Virus record (IMG/VR): IMGVR_UViG_3300032278_000136
Coordinates: 1 to 21,504 of that record
DNA: 21,504 bases
Reading direction: 5' to 3' (one strand)
Source of the DNA: a virus
Numbering within the stretch: position 1 is the first letter of the stretch; each line of letters begins with the position of its first letter. The position numbers were made by a program, and so were the translations under genes. Below the pieces are notes generated by a model. It was not told the DNA's origin, did not search any database, and was given only the letters and a program-made list of their open reading frames with translations. This document shows positions 8,313 through 21,504 of this stretch, piece after piece.

Positions 8313-8648
8313 ATGCCTACATGGACAGATAAATACTTAGGTCAGTCAAAGCCTTCTGCCACAACGAATACTTCGATTTATTCTCCGGGATCTTCGACAG
8401 AGACGATATTATCCTCTTTGATAATTTGTAATACAAATACTGCTGATACTACTATTAGAGTATTTCATGATAATGATGGAACAACTTATGATGCGACAAC
8501 AGCTCTTCTTTATGATGAGCCTATTAGAGGATTTCGTTCAATCTTGCTAAGATTACATGGAGTTATGGATAATGCTAGCGGTAATTTAGCTGTATACAGT
8601 ACAAGTGGACATGTAAACTTTACTTTATATGGAGCTGAGGTAACTTAA
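8313..8648 (+). CDS. Small beta-sandwich virion protein
   Basis: A 111-residue protein with regular alternating strands: ETILSSLIICNTNTADTTI, RVFHDNDGTTY, SILLRLHGVMDNASGNLAVYS and HVNFTLYGAEV. This short all-beta layout is frequent in phage structural clusters next to fiber genes. There is only a poor ribosome binding site before ATG 8313 (the stretch is GCGGCGGCG), but the start is one base after the preceding stop, so coupled translation is likely. Its own stop overlaps the fiber start (TAATG). It probably sits on the virion surface or at the fiber base. Family not recognised by name. Confidence 0.6.
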   Translation: MPTWTDKYLGQSKPSATTNTSIYSPGSSTETILSSLIICNTNTADTTIRVFHDNDGTTYDATTALLYDEPIRGFRSILLRLHGVMDNASGNLAVYSTSGHVNFTLYGAEVT

Positions 8649-11600
8649 TGGGCGTATCTCATCACATGGTTCCGAGACTATTTGACGACTTCTCTCCAGA
8701 GTTGGGAGGGGATCTTCGCACTAATGGTAATCGTATTGATCTTGATGAGGATAATGATTCAAGTATTAGAGCCTCATCCGATGATACTATAACGATAGAG
8801 ATTGGTGGAAGTGATCTAATTGCTCTCACAACTACTTCTACTTTTTCGTGTCCTATCACTGTTGGTGTTGATGATACTGGATACGATGTTAAGTTCTTTG
8901 GAGCGACTTCTGGCGCATATATGCTCTGGGATGAATCAGAAGATGACTTAATATTAGGTGGAGCATCTCGCCTTGTTGGTAGTGTTACTGGAAATGTAAC
9001 TGGGAATGTAACTGGATCATCTGGTTCATGTACTGGAAATGCTGCTACAGTAACCGCATTTCCGATTACTGGATTGTCAGATGTATATGCATCAATGAGT
9101 CCATCTGATGGGCATGTGTTGACATATGATTCAACTAATGGATGGCAAGCTGAAAGCCCAACGACAGGAGATATTACTGGGGTCACAGCAGGAACAGGTT
9201 TATCAGGAGGGGGAACATCTGGAACTGTTACACTTAACAATGCGGGAGTAACCTCTATTGTAGCAGGTACTAATGTATCTGTTAGTGGAGCTACAGGAGC
9301 TGTCACAGTAACTTCCACAGACACAAACACTCAACTGTCTACAGAGCAGGTGCAAGATATAGTAGGTGGTATGCTTGGTGGAACGGAAACACGGATTGCA
9401 GTTACTTACGATGACGCTAGTAATAATATTAGTTTTGTTGTCGATGACATGACTGCCAATACTCAGTTAACTTCTGAGGAAGTGCAAGACATAGTTGGAG
9501 CTATGTTTACCAGCAATACAGAAACTAGAGTAGCAGCTACTTATCAAGATGGTGACGGCACTATAGACCTTATAGTGGACGACATGACTGCTAATGATAA
9601 TACGTGGAGAACTATCACTGCTGGAGGTAATACCCTCAGTACCAGCGAAACTCTAGCCTTCACAGCAGGTACAGGTATTACCATAGCCGAATCTGCTGGA
9701 GCGGTTACTATAACAAACAGTATAGCTGACACTACTCTATCTGCTGAACAGGTGCAAGATATAGTGGGAGCTATGTTTACGGGCAATACTGAGACAAGGA
9801 TAGCGGCTACTTATGAAGATGGAGACGGAACCATTGACCTTGTAGTTACTGATATGACCGCCAATGATAACACTTGGCGAACGGTCACTGCTGGAGGAAA
9901 CACCCTTAGTACAAGTGAAACCCTAGCATTCACTGCGGGTTCTAATGTAACTATTTCAGAATCAGCTGGGGCAGTTACGATTGCTGGAACTGCCAATACT
10001 CAACTAACTGCTGAAGAGGTAGAGGATATAGTTGGGGCTATGTTTACTGGAAATACAGAGACGAGAATAGCCGCCACTTATCAAGACGGTGATGGTACTA
10101 TTGACTTAGTAGTAGATGATCTGAATACTGATACTCAACTAACTAACGAACAAGTACAAGACATAGTGGGTGCGATGTTTACTGGTAATACGGAAACACG
10201 TATTGCTGCTACCTATGAGGATGGGGATGGTACCATTGATTTAGTCGTAGACAATATGACGGCTAATGATAACACATGGAGAACCGTAACTGCGGGGGGT
10301 AATACACTCAGCACCAGTGAAACTTTAGCATTCACTGCAGGCTCAAATGTTACAATTTCAGAGTCAGCCGGTGCTGTAACTATCACATCTGCTGATACTA
10401 ATACTCAACTATCTACAGAAGCAGTGCAGGATATTGTCGGTGCGATGTTTAGCAGTAATACAGAAACTCGCGCAACTGTTACATATCAAGATGGCGATGG
10501 AACGATTGATGTTGTAATCGATGACATGACTGCCAACGACAATACTTGGCGGCCCATCACAGCTGGAGGGAACTCGCTTAGTACATCTGAAACATTAGCT
10601 TTCACGGCAGGCACAGGCATTACAATTGCTGAGTCCGCGGGCGCTGTTACTATTACTAACTCCATTAGTGACACTACCTTATCTAGTGAGAATGTTCAGG
10701 ACATAGTTGGAGCAATGTTTACATCAAACACTGAGACAAGAGGTTCGATTACCTATGATGATTCAGATGGTACTCTCGATCTTGTTGTGGATGATATGAC
10801 AGCGAATGATAATACTCAGAATGAGTATGCTACATCATGGGTTGATAGTTCCAATGACGTTCTTATTCGCTTGACTGAAAGTGGCGCAGGATCAGGGACT
10901 CAGGATATCAAAATAGTTGCTGGGAGTAATATAACTCTTACTCCATCCGGCACTGATATGACCATTGCCTCGACTGATACCAATACTCAACTCTCAACTG
11001 AAGAGGTTCAAGATATCGTGGGGGCGATGTTTGGAGGCAATACAGAAACACGAATTGCAGTAACGTATGAAGACGGTGATGGAACGCTGGATCTCGTAGT
11101 TGATGACATGACGGCGAATGACAATACATGGAGAACAATTACAGCTGGAGGTAATACTTTATCCACTAGTGAGACATTGGCCTTTACTGCGGGGTCTAAT
11201 GTGACTATTACTGAAAGTGCTGGTGCAGTGACCATTGCTTCAACAGATACGAATACTCAACTTACTCAGGAACAGGTGGAAGACTACGCTGGTGCGCTCG
11301 TCGCTAGTGGCGGAACTAAGACTGGTATCGCGGTGACTTACCAAGACGGTACTGGTGACATGGACTTGGTTGTGTCTGATCTCACTGTGGCAGGGGATTC
11401 AGGATCTACTGGAATGACTCCAGGTGATACTGTGACAATTGCAGGTGGAACGAACGTCACTACTGCTATGTCAGGGGATACCCTGACGATTACCTCAACT
11501 GATACCAATACTCAGTTGACCACTGAACAGGTCCAAGACATTGTTGGAGGGATGTTCACAGGAAACACAGAAACGAGGATTGCTGCTACTTATCAGGACG

Positions 11601-13039
11601 GTGATGGTACTATTGATCTAGTAACTGATGATATGACAGCCAATGATAATACATGGAGAACGGTAACTGCTGGCGGTAATACATTAAGTACTTCAGAGAC
11701 ATTAGCTTTTACAGCAGGATCTAATATAAGTATTTCTGAGTCTGCCGGAGCAGTTACTATAACTTCATCTGATCAGTATTCAGGTACTGTTGATACATCA
11801 GGAAGTCCTGTAGATAATGACTTCGCGAAATTTACAGATGCGGATACTATAGAAGGTAGAAGTTATGCTGAAACAAGATCAGATTTAGGCTTAGTAGCTA
11901 GTGCAACTACAGATACAACAAATGCCTCTAATATTAGTTCGGGGACATTAGCAGCTGGGAGGGTGGCAACTCTTAATCAAGACACTACAGGAACAGCAGC
12001 TACAGTTACTGGTGCAGCTCAAACGAGTATAACAAGTCTTGGAACTTTAACGTCACTTACTCTTTCTGGTGATGTTGATATTAACGGAGGATCTATAGAG
12101 ATTGAGGATAGTGAGTCCCTTATATTGGGAACTGGCGGGGACGTCACTATGTCTTATGATGGAAGTCACTGTTATCTCAATACTCAAGTGGCAGGATCAG
12201 GAAGTTTTTATGTCTTAGGAGGCGGTTTTGGCTTAAATAACAATACGAAAATTGAGTTCAAGGATGCGGCAGGAACATATCGAAAAGCAATAAGAGTAGA
12301 TACTGGAGATAACCTAGAACTTGGTAATGGTAATCTCGATGATATTGAAATCTTTGTAGGTACTACTGGAAAGGTTTTGACAATTAAAGAGAGTGGAGGG
12401 GATATTCATCAAATTGCAGATGATCAGAAGATCTTCTTTGGAGCAGCTCAAGATTCTTCGGTTTACTATGATGGCACAGATATGGTCTTAGATCCCGGTG
12501 TGGTAGGTACGGGGTCAGTAAAGATTCTAGATAAGCTCAAACTTCCCGAAAATTCTTCTGCCCCTACTGGAGGGGCTGCTGGTGATGTGTTTATATATAC
12601 TGCAACAGCAGGTGATCCTATTCCAATGTTCTATGACTCAGGTCGTAGTAAGTTTTTGAGCTTTGATAGGAATACGATTATAGCAGGTAGTACAGTATCA
12701 GGATCCAAGGGATCTACTAATCAGAATTTAAGAACTCCTAATAATGTCTCTATGGTTACAGCTGGCAAGGGATATAAGTTACCTTGGAATATGACTGTTA
12801 CGGCTATATCCGCTACGAATAATAATACAGCAACTTATACAGTAAATGTGAGGAAGAATGGGGTGGCTTCTAATCTTTTGCAATTAACTACTACTGGAGC
12901 GAAGGGTAGTTCTAGTGATGTGTCTAATCTAGATCTAGATGAAGATGATGTAATTAATATGAGATTTGATGTAGATGCTGGCAGTGCAAATGTTGTATCT
13001 AATATAACAGTTGGTCTTACTCTTGCAAGAAGGATTTAA
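8648..13039 (+). CDS. Large tail fiber with ten internal repeats
   Basis: A 1463-residue fiber. Residues 1-120 are the tail-attachment end with a DIDLDED-like loop and strands. Around residue 115-140 lies VTGNVTGNVTGSSGSCTGNAATVT. Residues about 224-1042 hold ten repeats built on VQDIVGAMFTGNTETR, TYQDGDGTIDLVVDD, NDNTWRTVTAGGNTLSTS and ETLAFTAGSNVTISESAGA. After this come GRVATLNQDTTGTAATVTG, SLTLSGDVDINGGSIEIED and LGTGGDVTMSYDG, and a final beta domain (about 1330-1463) with a TAGKGYKLPWNMTV start that is probably the receptor-binding tip. It has no S74 chaperone end. Fibers of this kind form trimers that recognise the host surface. Low stop frequency on the other strand comes from the repeats, not from genes. 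Confidence 0.88.
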   Translation: MGVSHHMVPRLFDDFSPELGGDLRTNGNRIDLDEDNDSSIRASSDDTITIEIGGSDLIALTTTSTFSCPITVGVDDTGYDVKFFGATSGAYMLWDESEDDLILGGASRLVGSVTGNVTGNVTGSSGSCTGNAATVTAFPITGLSDVYASMSPSDGHVLTYDSTNGWQAESPTTGDITGVTAGTGLSGGGTSGTVTLNNAGVTSIVAGTNVSVSGATGAVTVTSTDTNTQLSTEQVQDIVGGMLGGTETRIAVTYDDASNNISFVVDDMTANTQLTSEEVQDIVGAMFTSNTETRVAATYQDGDGTIDLIVDDMTANDNTWRTITAGGNTLSTSETLAFTAGTGITIAESAGAVTITNSIADTTLSAEQVQDIVGAMFTGNTETRIAATYEDGDGTIDLVVTDMTANDNTWRTVTAGGNTLSTSETLAFTAGSNVTISESAGAVTIAGTANTQLTAEEVEDIVGAMFTGNTETRIAATYQDGDGTIDLVVDDLNTDTQLTNEQVQDIVGAMFTGNTETRIAATYEDGDGTIDLVVDNMTANDNTWRTVTAGGNTLSTSETLAFTAGSNVTISESAGAVTITSADTNTQLSTEAVQDIVGAMFSSNTETRATVTYQDGDGTIDVVIDDMTANDNTWRPITAGGNSLSTSETLAFTAGTGITIAESAGAVTITNSISDTTLSSENVQDIVGAMFTSNTETRGSITYDDSDGTLDLVVDDMTANDNTQNEYATSWVDSSNDVLIRLTESGAGSGTQDIKIVAGSNITLTPSGTDMTIASTDTNTQLSTEEVQDIVGAMFGGNTETRIAVTYEDGDGTLDLVVDDMTANDNTWRTITAGGNTLSTSETLAFTAGSNVTITESAGAVTIASTDTNTQLTQEQVEDYAGALVASGGTKTGIAVTYQDGTGDMDLVVSDLTVAGDSGSTGMTPGDTVTIAGGTNVTTAMSGDTLTITSTDTNTQLTTEQVQDIVGGMFTGNTETRIAATYQDGDGTIDLVTDDMTANDNTWRTVTAGGNTLSTSETLAFTAGSNISISESAGAVTITSSDQYSGTVDTSGSPVDNDFAKFTDADTIEGRSYAETRSDLGLVASATTDTTNASNISSGTLAAGRVATLNQDTTGTAATVTGAAQTSITSLGTLTSLTLSGDVDINGGSIEIEDSESLILGTGGDVTMSYDGSHCYLNTQVAGSGSFYVLGGGFGLNNNTKIEFKDAAGTYRKAIRVDTGDNLELGNGNLDDIEIFVGTTGKVLTIKESGGDIHQIADDQKIFFGAAQDSSVYYDGTDMVLDPGVVGTGSVKILDKLKLPENSSAPTGGAAGDVFIYTATAGDPIPMFYDSGRSKFLSFDRNTIIAGSTVSGSKGSTNQNLRTPNNVSMVTAGKGYKLPWNMTVTAISATNNNTATYTVNVRKNGVASNLLQLTTTGAKGSSSDVSNLDLDEDDVINMRFDVDAGSANVVSNITVGLTLARRI
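9317..11773 (+). repeat. Ten protein-level repeats in the fiber shaft with scrambled codons
   Basis: Copies start near 9317, 9458, 9731, 9995, 10133, 10400, 10673, 10982, 11252 and 11507. Two modules make them up: A (about 46 residues, with VQDIVGAM and DGDGTIDLVVDD) and B (about 43 residues, with NDNTWRT and ETLAFTAG). The order is A, AB, AB, A, AB, AB, A plus a diverged B, AB, A plus diverged B, AB, so the spacing is about 138-141 bases for A alone and 255-309 for the pairs. At the DNA level the copies differ strongly at silent positions: between 9863-9940 and 10265-10342 all 26 residues are the same, yet 16 of 26 codons differ. Confidence 0.9.
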
Positions 13040-16605: not shown

Positions 16606-19600
16606 ATGGCACAAAAAAAGTCTGTTATAAATCTACCTATCTCTGTTCTAGATGGGACTTCATGGGAAGGGTTAGATGGACCTGTTAGTGAGGGTGAGAT
16701 TGGTCCCGGAAGATTTTTAGAAGAAGAAGAAAAAATTTCAGATGCAGATATTCTAAGAATGTCTGAAGGTGTGGCTATTGCTCCTCCTGTATCTGCTCCT
16801 TTTAGTCCTAAAGAAATTGAAGGATTGTACGGTCCTATTGGACCTGAGCTACAAGATCGTCCTGCTATGGAGAGAGATGTACCTCTCACAGGAGAATTAA
16901 AGAAATCTCTTGACGATTTAAGTACATTTTTTATAGATAAAAAGACAGGTAAACAGGTCTATGAAGGTCCCAGACCTAAGAAGGGATTCCTGCCAGATAA
17001 TATATTTCCTACTCCTCGTCGTACAGTAGTGACTGATACTGGTCAGTCAGGGAATGTACGTCTTAGCTCTCATACAGTCCTCATGGCTCCGAGTAAAAGA
17101 ACGAAAACGGGATTTCGAGAGGTTGGAAAGGGACATCCTTTAGGAGAAATGCGTACTGTTGTAATTCCTACTCTTATTGATGGGAAACAATATTCGCATG
17201 GTCAGGCTCTTGAGATTGCAAGAAAGTATGGGCTTGAACAATTTCCTTCATTTAAGACTATAGAAAAAGCTGAAAAATGGATACAGGATAATCATGATAG
17301 AGTCCCTGATACAGATCTATCTTATATTGATCTCGATTCAGCCACTAGGGTTAAACGTGCTGAACCCTCGGTTATAACGGGGCCAAGGCCAAGGATTGAT
17401 CTCTTAGAGGAAATTAGGAACCTACCTCCAGAAGAAAGAGGACTTTGGCAGGAGCTTGAAGGTAGTTTTATGGATGGCCTTACTGAAGGCAATCCTAAGG
17501 CTGGGTCTTATGCAGTATATGGAATAGGATTAACCTTAAATAGTCGTAGGATGGCTGACATGGGGAAAGAATGGATAGACCAACTTGGAGAAGATAATCC
17601 ATTCGCAACAATTTTTAAACCTCAAGTATCTTCTATGTCAGAGGTTGATAGTTTTAAGGAATTTCTTGATTTTACTGCATTCTCAATTGGAGCAGCTACT
17701 TCAAGTATGGCTGTCACTCTTGGAGGAATGGCAGTTGGAGCAGGTGCTGGAGTTGGAGCAGGTGCTTTAGGTGGAGCAGCAGTTGCTGGGCCTGCTGGAG
17801 CAGCTGTGGGTGCAGCAGCGGGATTACCTGTAGGTGCAATAGTAGGAGCTTTTTCAGGATCTTTGCTTTTAAACTATGGGAGTCTTGTTCAATCTCTTAT
17901 AGAGGAGCAAGGAGTAGATCCAGTTGTAGCTGCTAGGATAGCATTAGCTCCGGGAATGGTTATGGCAGCATTTGATTCATTTGCTGCAACTAAAATTATA
18001 TCTCCTCTTGCAGGTGAAGGTCGAGCTGAGGCAATCAAATATCTAGCTAACCGTACAGTCAAGCTGGTAAAAAGAGGCGGAAAGATAGAATCGTTAACTG
18101 AAGTTGCTCAGCAGTTAATACACGAAACTACTGGTGTTTTTGCACATGGTTTTGGGTTTGCAGATGTAGATATACCTATGAAAGAAAGGTTTTGGAACCT
18201 AGTTGATGCTGCTTATATGGGATTTGCTGGGGGTACAACTATAGGTGGAGCAGCTGGTGTTCTCTCTTCACCCTTTGTTCAAATTCCTAGGCCAGAAGCA
18301 CAGAAACAGATAGGACGAGATCCTACCCCTCAAAGGAAGCGAATTGGAGTTGATACTGTAAGTGATCCTGATAAGGCTCCCATTATAACCCCTCGAGTTC
18401 ATGTCACTCCTGATCTAGCAGCTCAGCCTACATTAGGAGCTAGATGGAGGGGTGTGACTGGGTTGATTGCACATGTAGGAGAAGGAAGTACACTATTATC
18501 TCAAGAAGTTAAAGATAAGATATTCCGCTTGAATGTCCTTGGAGGGAAACTTCTTGAAGGTAATATTTCAGACTCTGAACAGGTAGCAATTAGGGAGGAG
18601 ATAGCTAGGATAGAGCAGGATCCAGAGATTCAAGGAGTAATGAAGAGGTTTAATGCTAGGCCTCGTAGAGGTAAAGGAGGAAAGTTTGAGCCTAAGATGA
18701 TACCTCTAGATAAGGTTACAGGGGAACCCAAGCCTGAGCCTACTAAAGTAAAGGTTGCAAGGAAAGAACGTCCTAAGCCTGCTCCGAAGAAAAAGCCATC
18801 AGTTGAGACAAAAGTAACTTCAAAGCAACTCGAACAAGATATAAAAGAGTATGAGGAGAAAAAAGCACGTTCTATAGAGTTGCAGAAGAAGGCTGAGGCT
18901 ATAGATAAGGATATTAAAGATCGTAAGAAGTCAAAACCTCCGGCAGATTCTGTAGCTGATATAGAGTTTAAGAAAGGAAAAAGTGAGGGAAGTGGACCGA
19001 TAAGTGTTGCTATATTTACAAAAGAAGGTGCAAAGGTAGAGGCTAAAAAGGTCTATGGTAAAGCAGCTAAGAAGAAGAAGAAAACGACAACGAAGAAAAA
19101 GCGTATAAAAAATGAGGGAATGGCATATATTCCTGTTAAAGAAATCAAGGAAATGTCAGATCAGGCTTGGAAAGTCTTAGTAGATAGACTAAGAATTGAG
19201 GGAACAAGAGCTAAAACAATTGAGGATCATACCACAAATATTACTAATGTAAGTAATCTAGTTTTAGCAGTTGCTGCTGCTGGAGAGCAAAGTTCCCGTC
19301 TGCTCCCAAGGTCTGAGTGGAAAGATGCAAGTTCTCCTACAACAGTGGGGGGTAAGATTAATGTGAAAAGGCGTTCTAGAGATGCACAAAAACTTTTAAG
19401 AGAAGCAGAAAAAGGTCTTAATAGAAAGCTAATTTCAGAGGGCAAAGCAGATATTTATGTGAAAGAGGTACAAACCGCAAGAAATAATATTGTTCCTTTA
19501 TATAGGGAGACAGTGGAACAAGCTATAGAAACTTTTGCAGGTTGGAGTGATTTGGAGGGTCAAGGTGAGAGTAAGATAGCCCAAGCTCAAACTCCTACGG

Positions 19601-21504
19601 AGAAGGTAATAGCAGGAATTTTAGCTGTAGTAAATACTACTCCTATTTTCTTTGATAGTGAAACGATTTCAGAGGGCAGGGCTGGAGTTTATTATCCTGA
19701 TACTCCCGGATATATTTATATAAACAGATTAGTAGGTTTTGATAAGATGGTGGAGGTAGCTCTTCATGAGTATATACATAGTCTCCATGAATCCCATCCT
19801 CGCCAGTATGATCGTATATTTGATATAATGTGGGAGGAAGGTGCTGCGGATATTCCTAAGTATGCTTATTCAGAAGTAGATCCTACTTTACCTGAAGTAT
19901 TTGCTCGAGAAGAACAAGTTGCTGAAAATATCAGCAATTTTCTTGGTGAAGGTTTACAGGTTTATGATCCTAAAAGTAAGAAGAATGTAGATACTAATCA
20001 TGCAGTGATGTTGAAGAATTTTATAGATCCTGAAGATCCTATTACACTTGAAGCTCCGGGTAGGACATTTTTAAGGGCAATTTTAACTGGAGATGTTAGT
20101 CAGTTAGATCTTATACGCGGTAAATTTAGTTTCTATGAAGCTGCGGCAGTAAAACAGAAAAGGCATTTTTTTACTTTAGCATCTATAGAAAGAGAGATAA
20201 AAGACTATGGTCAAAAGATACAAGTAGTAAAAGTGCTGCATGAGATACATGATGCAGCTGTCCCAAAGGGAAAGCTCATACAACATAAAGCAGCAACAGG
20301 AAAAGTAAGCGATATTTACTTAAGACCGAAACCTAAAAAGGTGCTTACTCGACGGGTCAATGAAGACGGCACAGTTACTATAAGCATGAGCCTTGTGGGA
20401 GGTCTTGAAGTTCTTACTCCTAAAGCTGTTAAATCTATTGTTAAGATATTGGAAATAACTCGTAGAAGGATGCAGAGTGGACATGTACCTTTCCGAATGT
20501 TGACAGATATTTTATTCATGAGAAGTACTAACCTTGTCCGAAAATATGGAGGAGAAGCAGGGAAGCAGTGGGCTGATTCTGTAATGAGGTTAGCTACTCA
20601 TATTGATCGTGTAGTAGCTGGATATGTTGAGGATACTAAGGGTTATTATAATAAGTTAAAGGCTGTGTCTGGTCGTAACTCTACAGAGGATGTGAAGAGA
20701 GCTACTAAGCTCATGAACCAGCGTATTTCTTTTGAAGACTTAGTAAGCCAAGTAGGAAAGAGAAGAGCTGAGGCTATTAAAGAATTAGCGACTAGGCTTG
20801 CTGCAATTGAAAATACGTTACTTGATGTTGCAACAAAGCTAGGAATTAAAAGGAGGGTGAGAGGGAAGATGGTAGTGCAGAGGCGTGGAGGTAAGCCTTA
20901 TCCTCAGATACCTAATGCTGAGGGAAAGCTGAATCTGGCAGCGGCAGCAAATATGATAGGAAAAAATGGAGAAATAGGAGAAATCCATCCTAAGGTAAAA
21001 CAAGGTATAGATGAGATCTTATTCTCAAATCCAAATATTGATTATAATGCGATGACTCCTGAACAGCAACAGGAAGCCTTTAATACAGTTCTTAATGAGT
21101 TGGCTGAGGCTCACAAGGATTGGGAAAGCTCGATAGCTAATGAGGGATACTTTACTAGAACTAGAGTAGAGCTTCCTGAATCTTGGGTAGAATGGGATCC
21201 TCGAAAGACTCTAGCGGATCACTATCAGAGTTCTGTTAGGTATCTTGCAGCTGTAAGAGAGTGGGGATGGCTAGAAACAGTAAATGAAAGAACAGGAAAA
21301 GTTATTAAAGTAGTAGATCTCACCTTTAAGAGGCTTCATGCTATTTTCCGGGAAATAGGAAATGCAGCAGGAGATAGAGCTTTTGGAGAAATGGTCAAAA
21401 ACTATCATATGTACGAGTTTGGTGTCCGAGGTAGGGTACTAGGTTGGAGTGCTCAACTAGCTGGTAAGGTGAGTGTGTATGAGAGTTTAACTAAACTTGG
21501 ACTT
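16606..21504 (+). CDS. Giant multi-domain internal virion protein with a zincin-type metallopeptidase motif (3' end outside window)
   Basis: The frame stays open from ATG 16606 to the window end, giving at least 1633 residues; AAGG six bases before the ATG is the ribosome binding site. Visible in order: residues 1-130 charged and acidic; about 150-233 a compact alpha/beta piece (RTVVIPTLIDGKQYSHGQAL, then KTIEKAEKWIQ) that I recall from phage ejection proteins; about 355-422 a long Gly/Ala-rich hydrophobic stretch typical of membrane-inserting proteins; about 700-840 Lys-rich helical linkers (AAKKKKKTTTKKKRIKN); about 1015-1110 a zincin-like part with YIYIN (1036-1040), HEYIH (1054-1058) and EEQVAEN (1102-1108); then helices to the window end. 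Size, position and parts suggest a T7 gp16-like ejected protein, but no lysozyme motif is seen. Confidence 0.8.
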   Translation, partial: MAQKKSVINLPISVLDGTSWEGLDGPVSEGEIGPGRFLEEEEKISDADILRMSEGVAIAPPVSAPFSPKEIEGLYGPIGPELQDRPAMERDVPLTGELKKSLDDLSTFFIDKKTGKQVYEGPRPKKGFLPDNIFPTPRRTVVTDTGQSGNVRLSSHTVLMAPSKRTKTGFREVGKGHPLGEMRTVVIPTLIDGKQYSHGQALEIARKYGLEQFPSFKTIEKAEKWIQDNHDRVPDTDLSYIDLDSATRVKRAEPSVITGPRPRIDLLEEIRNLPPEERGLWQELEGSFMDGLTEGNPKAGSYAVYGIGLTLNSRRMADMGKEWIDQLGEDNPFATIFKPQVSSMSEVDSFKEFLDFTAFSIGAATSSMAVTLGGMAVGAGAGVGAGALGGAAVAGPAGAAVGAAAGLPVGAIVGAFSGSLLLNYGSLVQSLIEEQGVDPVVAARIALAPGMVMAAFDSFAATKIISPLAGEGRAEAIKYLANRTVKLVKRGGKIESLTEVAQQLIHETTGVFAHGFGFADVDIPMKERFWNLVDAAYMGFAGGTTIGGAAGVLSSPFVQIPRPEAQKQIGRDPTPQRKRIGVDTVSDPDKAPIITPRVHVTPDLAAQPTLGARWRGVTGLIAHVGEGSTLLSQEVKDKIFRLNVLGGKLLEGNISDSEQVAIREEIARIEQDPEIQGVMKRFNARPRRGKGGKFEPKMIPLDKVTGEPKPEPTKVKVARKERPKPAPKKKPSVETKVTSKQLEQDIKEYEEKKARSIELQKKAEAIDKDIKDRKKSKPPADSVADIEFKKGKSEGSGPISVAIFTKEGAKVEAKKVYGKAAKKKKKTTTKKKRIKNEGMAYIPVKEIKEMSDQAWKVLVDRLRIEGTRAKTIEDHTTNITNVSNLVLAVAAAGEQSSRLLPRSEWKDASSPTTVGGKINVKRRSRDAQKLLREAEKGLNRKLISEGKADIYVKEVQTARNNIVPLYRETVEQAIETFAGWSDLEGQGESKIAQAQTPTEKVIAGILAVVNTTPIFFDSETISEGRAGVYYPDTPGYIYINRLVGFDKMVEVALHEYIHSLHESHPRQYDRIFDIMWEEGAADIPKYAYSEVDPTLPEVFAREEQVAENISNFLGEGLQVYDPKSKKNVDTNHAVMLKNFIDPEDPITLEAPGRTFLRAILTGDVSQLDLIRGKFSFYEAAAVKQKRHFFTLASIEREIKDYGQKIQVVKVLHEIHDAAVPKGKLIQHKAATGKVSDIYLRPKPKKVLTRRVNEDGTVTISMSLVGGLEVLTPKAVKSIVKILEITRRRMQSGHVPFRMLTDILFMRSTNLVRKYGGEAGKQWADSVMRLATHIDRVVAGYVEDTKGYYNKLKAVSGRNSTEDVKRATKLMNQRISFEDLVSQVGKRRAEAIKELATRLAAIENTLLDVATKLGIKRRVRGKMVVQRRGGKPYPQIPNAEGKLNLAAAANMIGKNGEIGEIHPKVKQGIDEILFSNPNIDYNAMTPEQQQEAFNTVLNELAEAHKDWESSIANEGYFTRTRVELPESWVEWDPRKTLADHYQSSVRYLAAVREWGWLETVNERTGKVIKVVDLTFKRLHAIFREIGNAAGDRAFGEMVKNYHMYEFGVRGRVLGWSAQLAGKVSVYESLTKLGL

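Follow-up and report, generated by a model that had tools for sequence, protein, structure and literature searches.

The tandem module array of a fiber-like protein encoded by this virus is best explained, with a probability of roughly 0.86, as a set of old structural modules whose copies evolved independently, the silent sites becoming saturated while purifying selection held the residues. Under this reading, the modules arose long ago in a fiber-like phage protein, and the copies then evolved independently; silent positions have mutated to saturation, leaving the codons as random draws from the codon usage of the array, and purifying selection has kept the amino acids across copies. The copies do not homogenise one another (in relatives, each module is far closer to its positional counterpart than to its neighbours), and array content still changes through module-sized length differences and patchwork exchange, as seen in relatives rather than in the window (the whole stretch of 21,504 nucleotides analysed here). 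The modules may form the shaft of the fiber, assumed to be a trimer, and contacts common to all copies may be what keeps them alike. Having copies of low DNA identity probably makes the array less prone to internal deletion; this protection would be a by-product of age and not a selected feature.

The array is carried by an ORF of 1463 aa, downstream of portal-, major-capsid- and SU10-type-adaptor-like genes (PHROG/Pfam matches). Its assignment as a tail fiber is based on this position within a virion structural cluster (capsid, adaptor and portal neighbours) and on its kinship to fiber proteins; A modules are present in annotated tail fiber genes of phage isolates. The features, all on the plus strand, are as follows:

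8648 to 13039, plus strand: fiber-like ORF, 1463 aa, carrier of the array (ORF call; PHROG/Pfam matches of neighbours)
9326 to 9457, plus strand: A1 module, divergent, 44 aa
9458 to 9592, plus strand: A2 module
9593 to 9727, plus strand: B1 module
9728 to 9862, plus strand: A3 module
9863 to 9994, plus strand: B2 module, containing the first member of the pair compared in the initial annotation
9995 to 10129, plus strand: A4 module
10130 to 10264, plus strand: A5 module
10265 to 10399, plus strand: B3 module, containing the second member of that pair
10400 to 10534, plus strand: A6 module
10535 to 10669, plus strand: B4 module
10670 to 10804, plus strand: A7 module
10805 to 10981, plus strand: differing B-like segment where a B module would stand (read from the translation)
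10982 to 11116, plus strand: A8 module
11117 to 11251, plus strand: B5 module
11252 to 11389, plus strand: A9 module, divergent, 46 aa
11390 to 11506, plus strand: differing B-like segment (read from the translation)
11507 to 11641, plus strand: A10 module
11642 to 11776, plus strand: B6 module
11777 to 13036, plus strand: C-terminal part of the fiber, presumed distal or tip region, without a Pfam match

The array (9326-11776) thus comprises ten A modules (NTQLSTEQVQDIVGAMFTGNTETRIAATYQDGDGTIDLVVDDMTA-like) and six B modules (NDNTWRTVTAGGNTLSTSETLAFTAGSNVTISESAGAVTI-like), both of 45 aa, along with two other B-like segments. The initial annotation had seen ten copies of a two-module repeat; this holds for the A modules, but only six clear B modules could be recognised, since the module next to A1, like that next to A4, is again an A module, while A7 and A9 precede the other B-like segments. 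Likewise, its description of the amino acid sequences as near-identical is too strong for the A modules, with a mean pairwise identity of 0.71 (range 0.44-0.89), the corresponding mean for the B modules being 0.83.

Single modules had no match in Pfam, and solved structures searched by profile with the A module gave no credible match. Matches of the whole fiber protein to THUMP and Laminin G were discarded, as neither contained a significant single stretch. Single-chain structure predictions were of low confidence and too weak for a fold search, both for an A-B-A-B segment (pLDDT 40) and for the C-terminal 310 residues (12107-13036; pLDDT 35); the predicted secondary structure, also of low confidence, is a helix plus a β-hairpin for A and a β-hairpin for B. 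The first ~110 residues of the C-terminal part are found again in other viral contigs. A tblastn search of phages with the whole fiber gave no match, probably owing to the low-complexity filter, and a 90-aa piece did match. Further along the window, positions 16606-21504 hold a very long ORF of at least 1633 aa, which is open at the window end.

Silent sites in the array are saturated. Averaged over all pairs of copies, pS is 0.78 for the A modules and 0.79 for the B modules, so that most JC dS values between copies exceed 1.5 or are undefined, whereas pN is only 0.19 and 0.14, respectively. Saturated silent sites alongside conserved replacement sites are what is expected of an ancient array that has not been homogenised, and they bear out the earlier proposal of old copies maintained by selection at the protein level. 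The codon diversity that had originally been reported is real, even if the layout, the near-identity and the serine details of that report need correction. In the pair of segments that it compared (9863-9940 and 10265-10342; both NDNTWRTVTAGGNTLSTSETLAFTAG), the residues are identical throughout (26 of 26), yet 16 of the codons differ, by one base each. The changes of codon box claimed for this pair exist for Arg (CGA/AGA) and Leu (CTA/TTA), both single-step silent changes, but Ser varies within its box only (AGT/AGC); true Ser box switches (AGY/TCN) occur at other homologous positions, such as B columns 16, 18 and 34 and A column 19. Array-wide, a single codon is used in none of the 31 invariant degenerate B columns and in one of the 11 A columns. 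This one is A column 2 (Thr), where ACT stands in 10 of 10 A modules of the window and where a mild codon preference is also visible in other arrays.

The scrambling in the compared pair is randomness and no more than randomness: if each copy draws independently from the codons of the array, 10.2 ± 2.3 of the 26 codons are expected to be shared, and 10 are. Over the whole array, the fraction of same codons at identical residues is 0.395, against 0.378 ± 0.010 when the codons of the array are shuffled (z of +1.7 and +2.0 in two computations). This small positive z may be explained by position-specific codon preference, which is slight (for example, GCT at A column 15). Codon sharing shows no trend with the spacing of the copies (Spearman -0.03), and exact repeats reach 20 nt at most, against 22.5 ± 3.7 nt for the longest in shuffles. 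Codons in the array are thus random, neither homogenised nor actively avoided. The marks of concerted evolution, namely neighbours more alike in DNA and long identical tracts, are absent from the window array; no recent gene conversion between neighbours was seen, nor any neighbour effect, in line with the initial annotation.

The initial annotation had offered, next to protein-level selection on old copies, active selection against DNA sameness: recombination between identical copies would shrink the array, which would favour silent changes that make the copies differ. Only the former part of that interpretation is supported, and we consider the latter highly improbable. Judged by the codon usage of the other genes in the window, a match of 0.435 would be expected and 0.395 is seen (P 0.006), as avoidance would predict; the deficit vanishes once the array's own codons are shuffled. 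Codons in the array are more even (weighted homozygosity 0.372, against 0.423 in the other window genes pooled), and single window genes match this value (0.370 for the portal gene, 0.375 for the gene at 1571-2416).

The same question was addressed in related marine viral arrays. Scanning IMG/VR yielded 503 related stretches, from which 75 loci were kept; together with later scans, and with the window's own modules included, this gave a codon alignment of 481 A and 120 B modules. Forty-five non-redundant arrays, the window among them, have at least four A modules each; they are not fully independent, as some come from related phages. None of these shows a significant deficit of codon sharing (lowest z -1.07, mean +1.4). 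Codon evenness does not differ between arrays and flanking genes (p 0.89, 35 arrays). Nor is there any depletion of exact repeats, whether measured as the longest repeat (20 of 37 arrays below the null mean, p 0.82) or as 15-mers (19 of 37, p 0.73). Neighbouring copies should recombine most, yet they are no more different than distant ones (p 0.95 per array). On the side of avoidance, four arrays (L004, L017, L030 and L031) lie at the low end for exact repeats, and relatives differ by single-module length steps. The pattern is common to related viruses, without the need for a special codon-scrambling mechanism. One surveyed locus, L116, on a contig titled Poseidoniales archaeon that is possibly viral, has a 3567-aa ORF with three A modules as well as B modules.

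Some arrays share more codons than expected by chance (L008, L010, L041, L046, L049, L054 and L068), and thus younger duplication or conversion does happen in some arrays of this module family. The fiber ORFs of L008, L010, L041, L020 and L046 are clearly enriched in exact repeats (of as much as 47 nt), unlike the window. Nevertheless, only 1 of 828 within-array pairs shares at least 80% of codons. Two adjacent units in L019 share 83 of 89 residues and 42 of 89 codons. This scarcity of intermediate pairs, alongside module-sized length differences between relatives, is what would be seen if near-identical duplicates were deleted fast by phage or host recombination, such that only copies that diverged early persist, without any selection on codons. 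Such survivorship is compatible with the old age of the modules and is a possible addition to it, with the odds leaning somewhat against; in a saturated array it leaves the same picture as plain old age, and the data contain no deletion event with a mapped junction.

Short-read metagenome assembly may also fail on near-identical arrays, so that collections would hold only diverged ones. Array ORFs contain contig ends at 1.8 times the density of their flanks (29 in 315 kb against 29 in 572 kb; p 0.03), which suggests that assembly may hide near-identical arrays, and the contig L077, nearly identical to the window, stops inside the array at 10182. This explanation, which bears on the survey of relatives and not on the window, is nonetheless quite unlikely to account for the pattern: it cannot produce the saturation in the window, and partly diverged duplicates, having only short exact runs, should assemble, yet are rare.

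Further support for old age comes from orthologous modules. The initial annotation had proposed setting silent distances between copies against those between orthologs in related phages, and the former turned out to be far larger: in five related pairs, pS is 0.12-0.28 and pN 0.002-0.087 between orthologous A modules, whereas the pS between paralogs of the same array is 0.69-0.93, so the copies are older than those phage splits. In L004/L005 and most of L003/L006, positional orthology holds at a constant offset, and the pairing is hence not a best-match artefact; in the other pairs, it was chosen to maximise codon sharing and is biased upward. For the window itself, this comparison is confined to the near-identical L077, which overlaps it with six mismatches overall, one of them in the array (9326-10182). 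L078 is too short to reach the window fiber, and scans with the neighbouring genes found no fiber ortholog at an intermediate distance. The latter, together with the relatives that share too many codons and the more even codons of the array, counts against the preferred reading.

Changes in array length, which the initial annotation had suggested looking for, do occur between relatives, as module-sized differences in L015/L065, L003/L006 and L013/L069. Moreover, module identity can be patchy on a conserved backbone: it ranges at the codon level from 0.55 to 1.00 in L013/L069, with a backbone identity of 98.1% (heterogeneity p 1.8e-9), and from 0.52 to 1.00 in L019/L038, whose backbone is 100% identical over 3770 bp; L018/L056 is likewise heterogeneous (p 4e-7). 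Between L019 (7740-8350) and L038 (9150-9498), kilobases of identity give way abruptly to ~80% inside an array module. L038 is apparently one A-B unit shorter and its contig stops ~300 bases past the drop, the break being a fiber exchange, a deletion or a chimeric contig end. Arrays of relatives thus differ by single-module length steps and patchwork exchange far more than by recent internal duplication.

Modules might even have been acquired singly from different phages, with silent sites already unrelated on arrival. Some modules at different array positions, in phages without detected backbone similarity, share 0.88-0.89 of their codons (L002@1350/L004@1106, L002@1495/L019@1455 and L006@1164/L069@710); the 46 module-sharing pairs of seemingly unrelated phages are an upper bound, as some are overlapping contigs with flanks that were not captured (L031/L039, L004/L005). 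GC3 in the array (9326-11776) is 0.29, compared to 0.21 elsewhere in the fiber ORF, and Asp is encoded by GAC at 27 of 69 positions against 17% in other genes, both possibly reflecting a foreign origin of the modules. Import is nevertheless an unlikely source of the window array: elsewhere, no clear close relative in DNA was found for any window module (the best outside match, among hundreds of comparisons, is 24 of 34 codons), and once silent sites are saturated it looks like old duplication.

The closest published parallel is found in the BACON tail arrays of crAss-like phages (PMC6949934), where a tail-associated phage protein is likewise built of modules in tandem. One lineage has a conserved domain order, with a separate clade for each position; in others, single domains have moved horizontally between phages. 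BACON modules differ in sequence (the fiber modules have no Pfam match) and belong to gut phages, and the part of that report concerned with these domains gives their phylogeny, not silent-site saturation. In the repeats of Persi, Wolf and Koonin 2016 (PMC5120217), divergence is much greater between paralogous than between orthologous copies, and individual copies are vertically conserved, as in the fiber array; their horizontal dN/dS is accelerated, whereas the inter-copy ratio in the fiber array looks low, as judged on saturated silent sites. No silent-site study of phage tail repeats turned up in a literature search. Two cultured marine phages, Synechococcus phage RN05-S and Pelagibacter phage HTVC033P, carry in their tail fiber genes a module of the same A family by profile, with one recognisable A module each and not an array.

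A further extension, which we regard as decidedly improbable, is that the arrays are recombination-proof within a genome, near-identical copies being lost fast, while their modules still serve as crossover sites with the fibers of other phages. In that case, the divergence of silent sites would be a functional trait of the array, gained by survivorship and not by codon-level selection, and the switch between L019 and L038 inside an array module would be one such exchange between phages.

Reading the array as old modules with saturated silent sites provides a clear control: codon scrambling in a repeat protein tempts one to see design, yet in the window and across the 45 arrays it equals random saturation. 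Fiber modules of these marine viruses appear to be old and position-stable, with reshuffling more visible between phages than within a genome, which bears on how fibers diversify.
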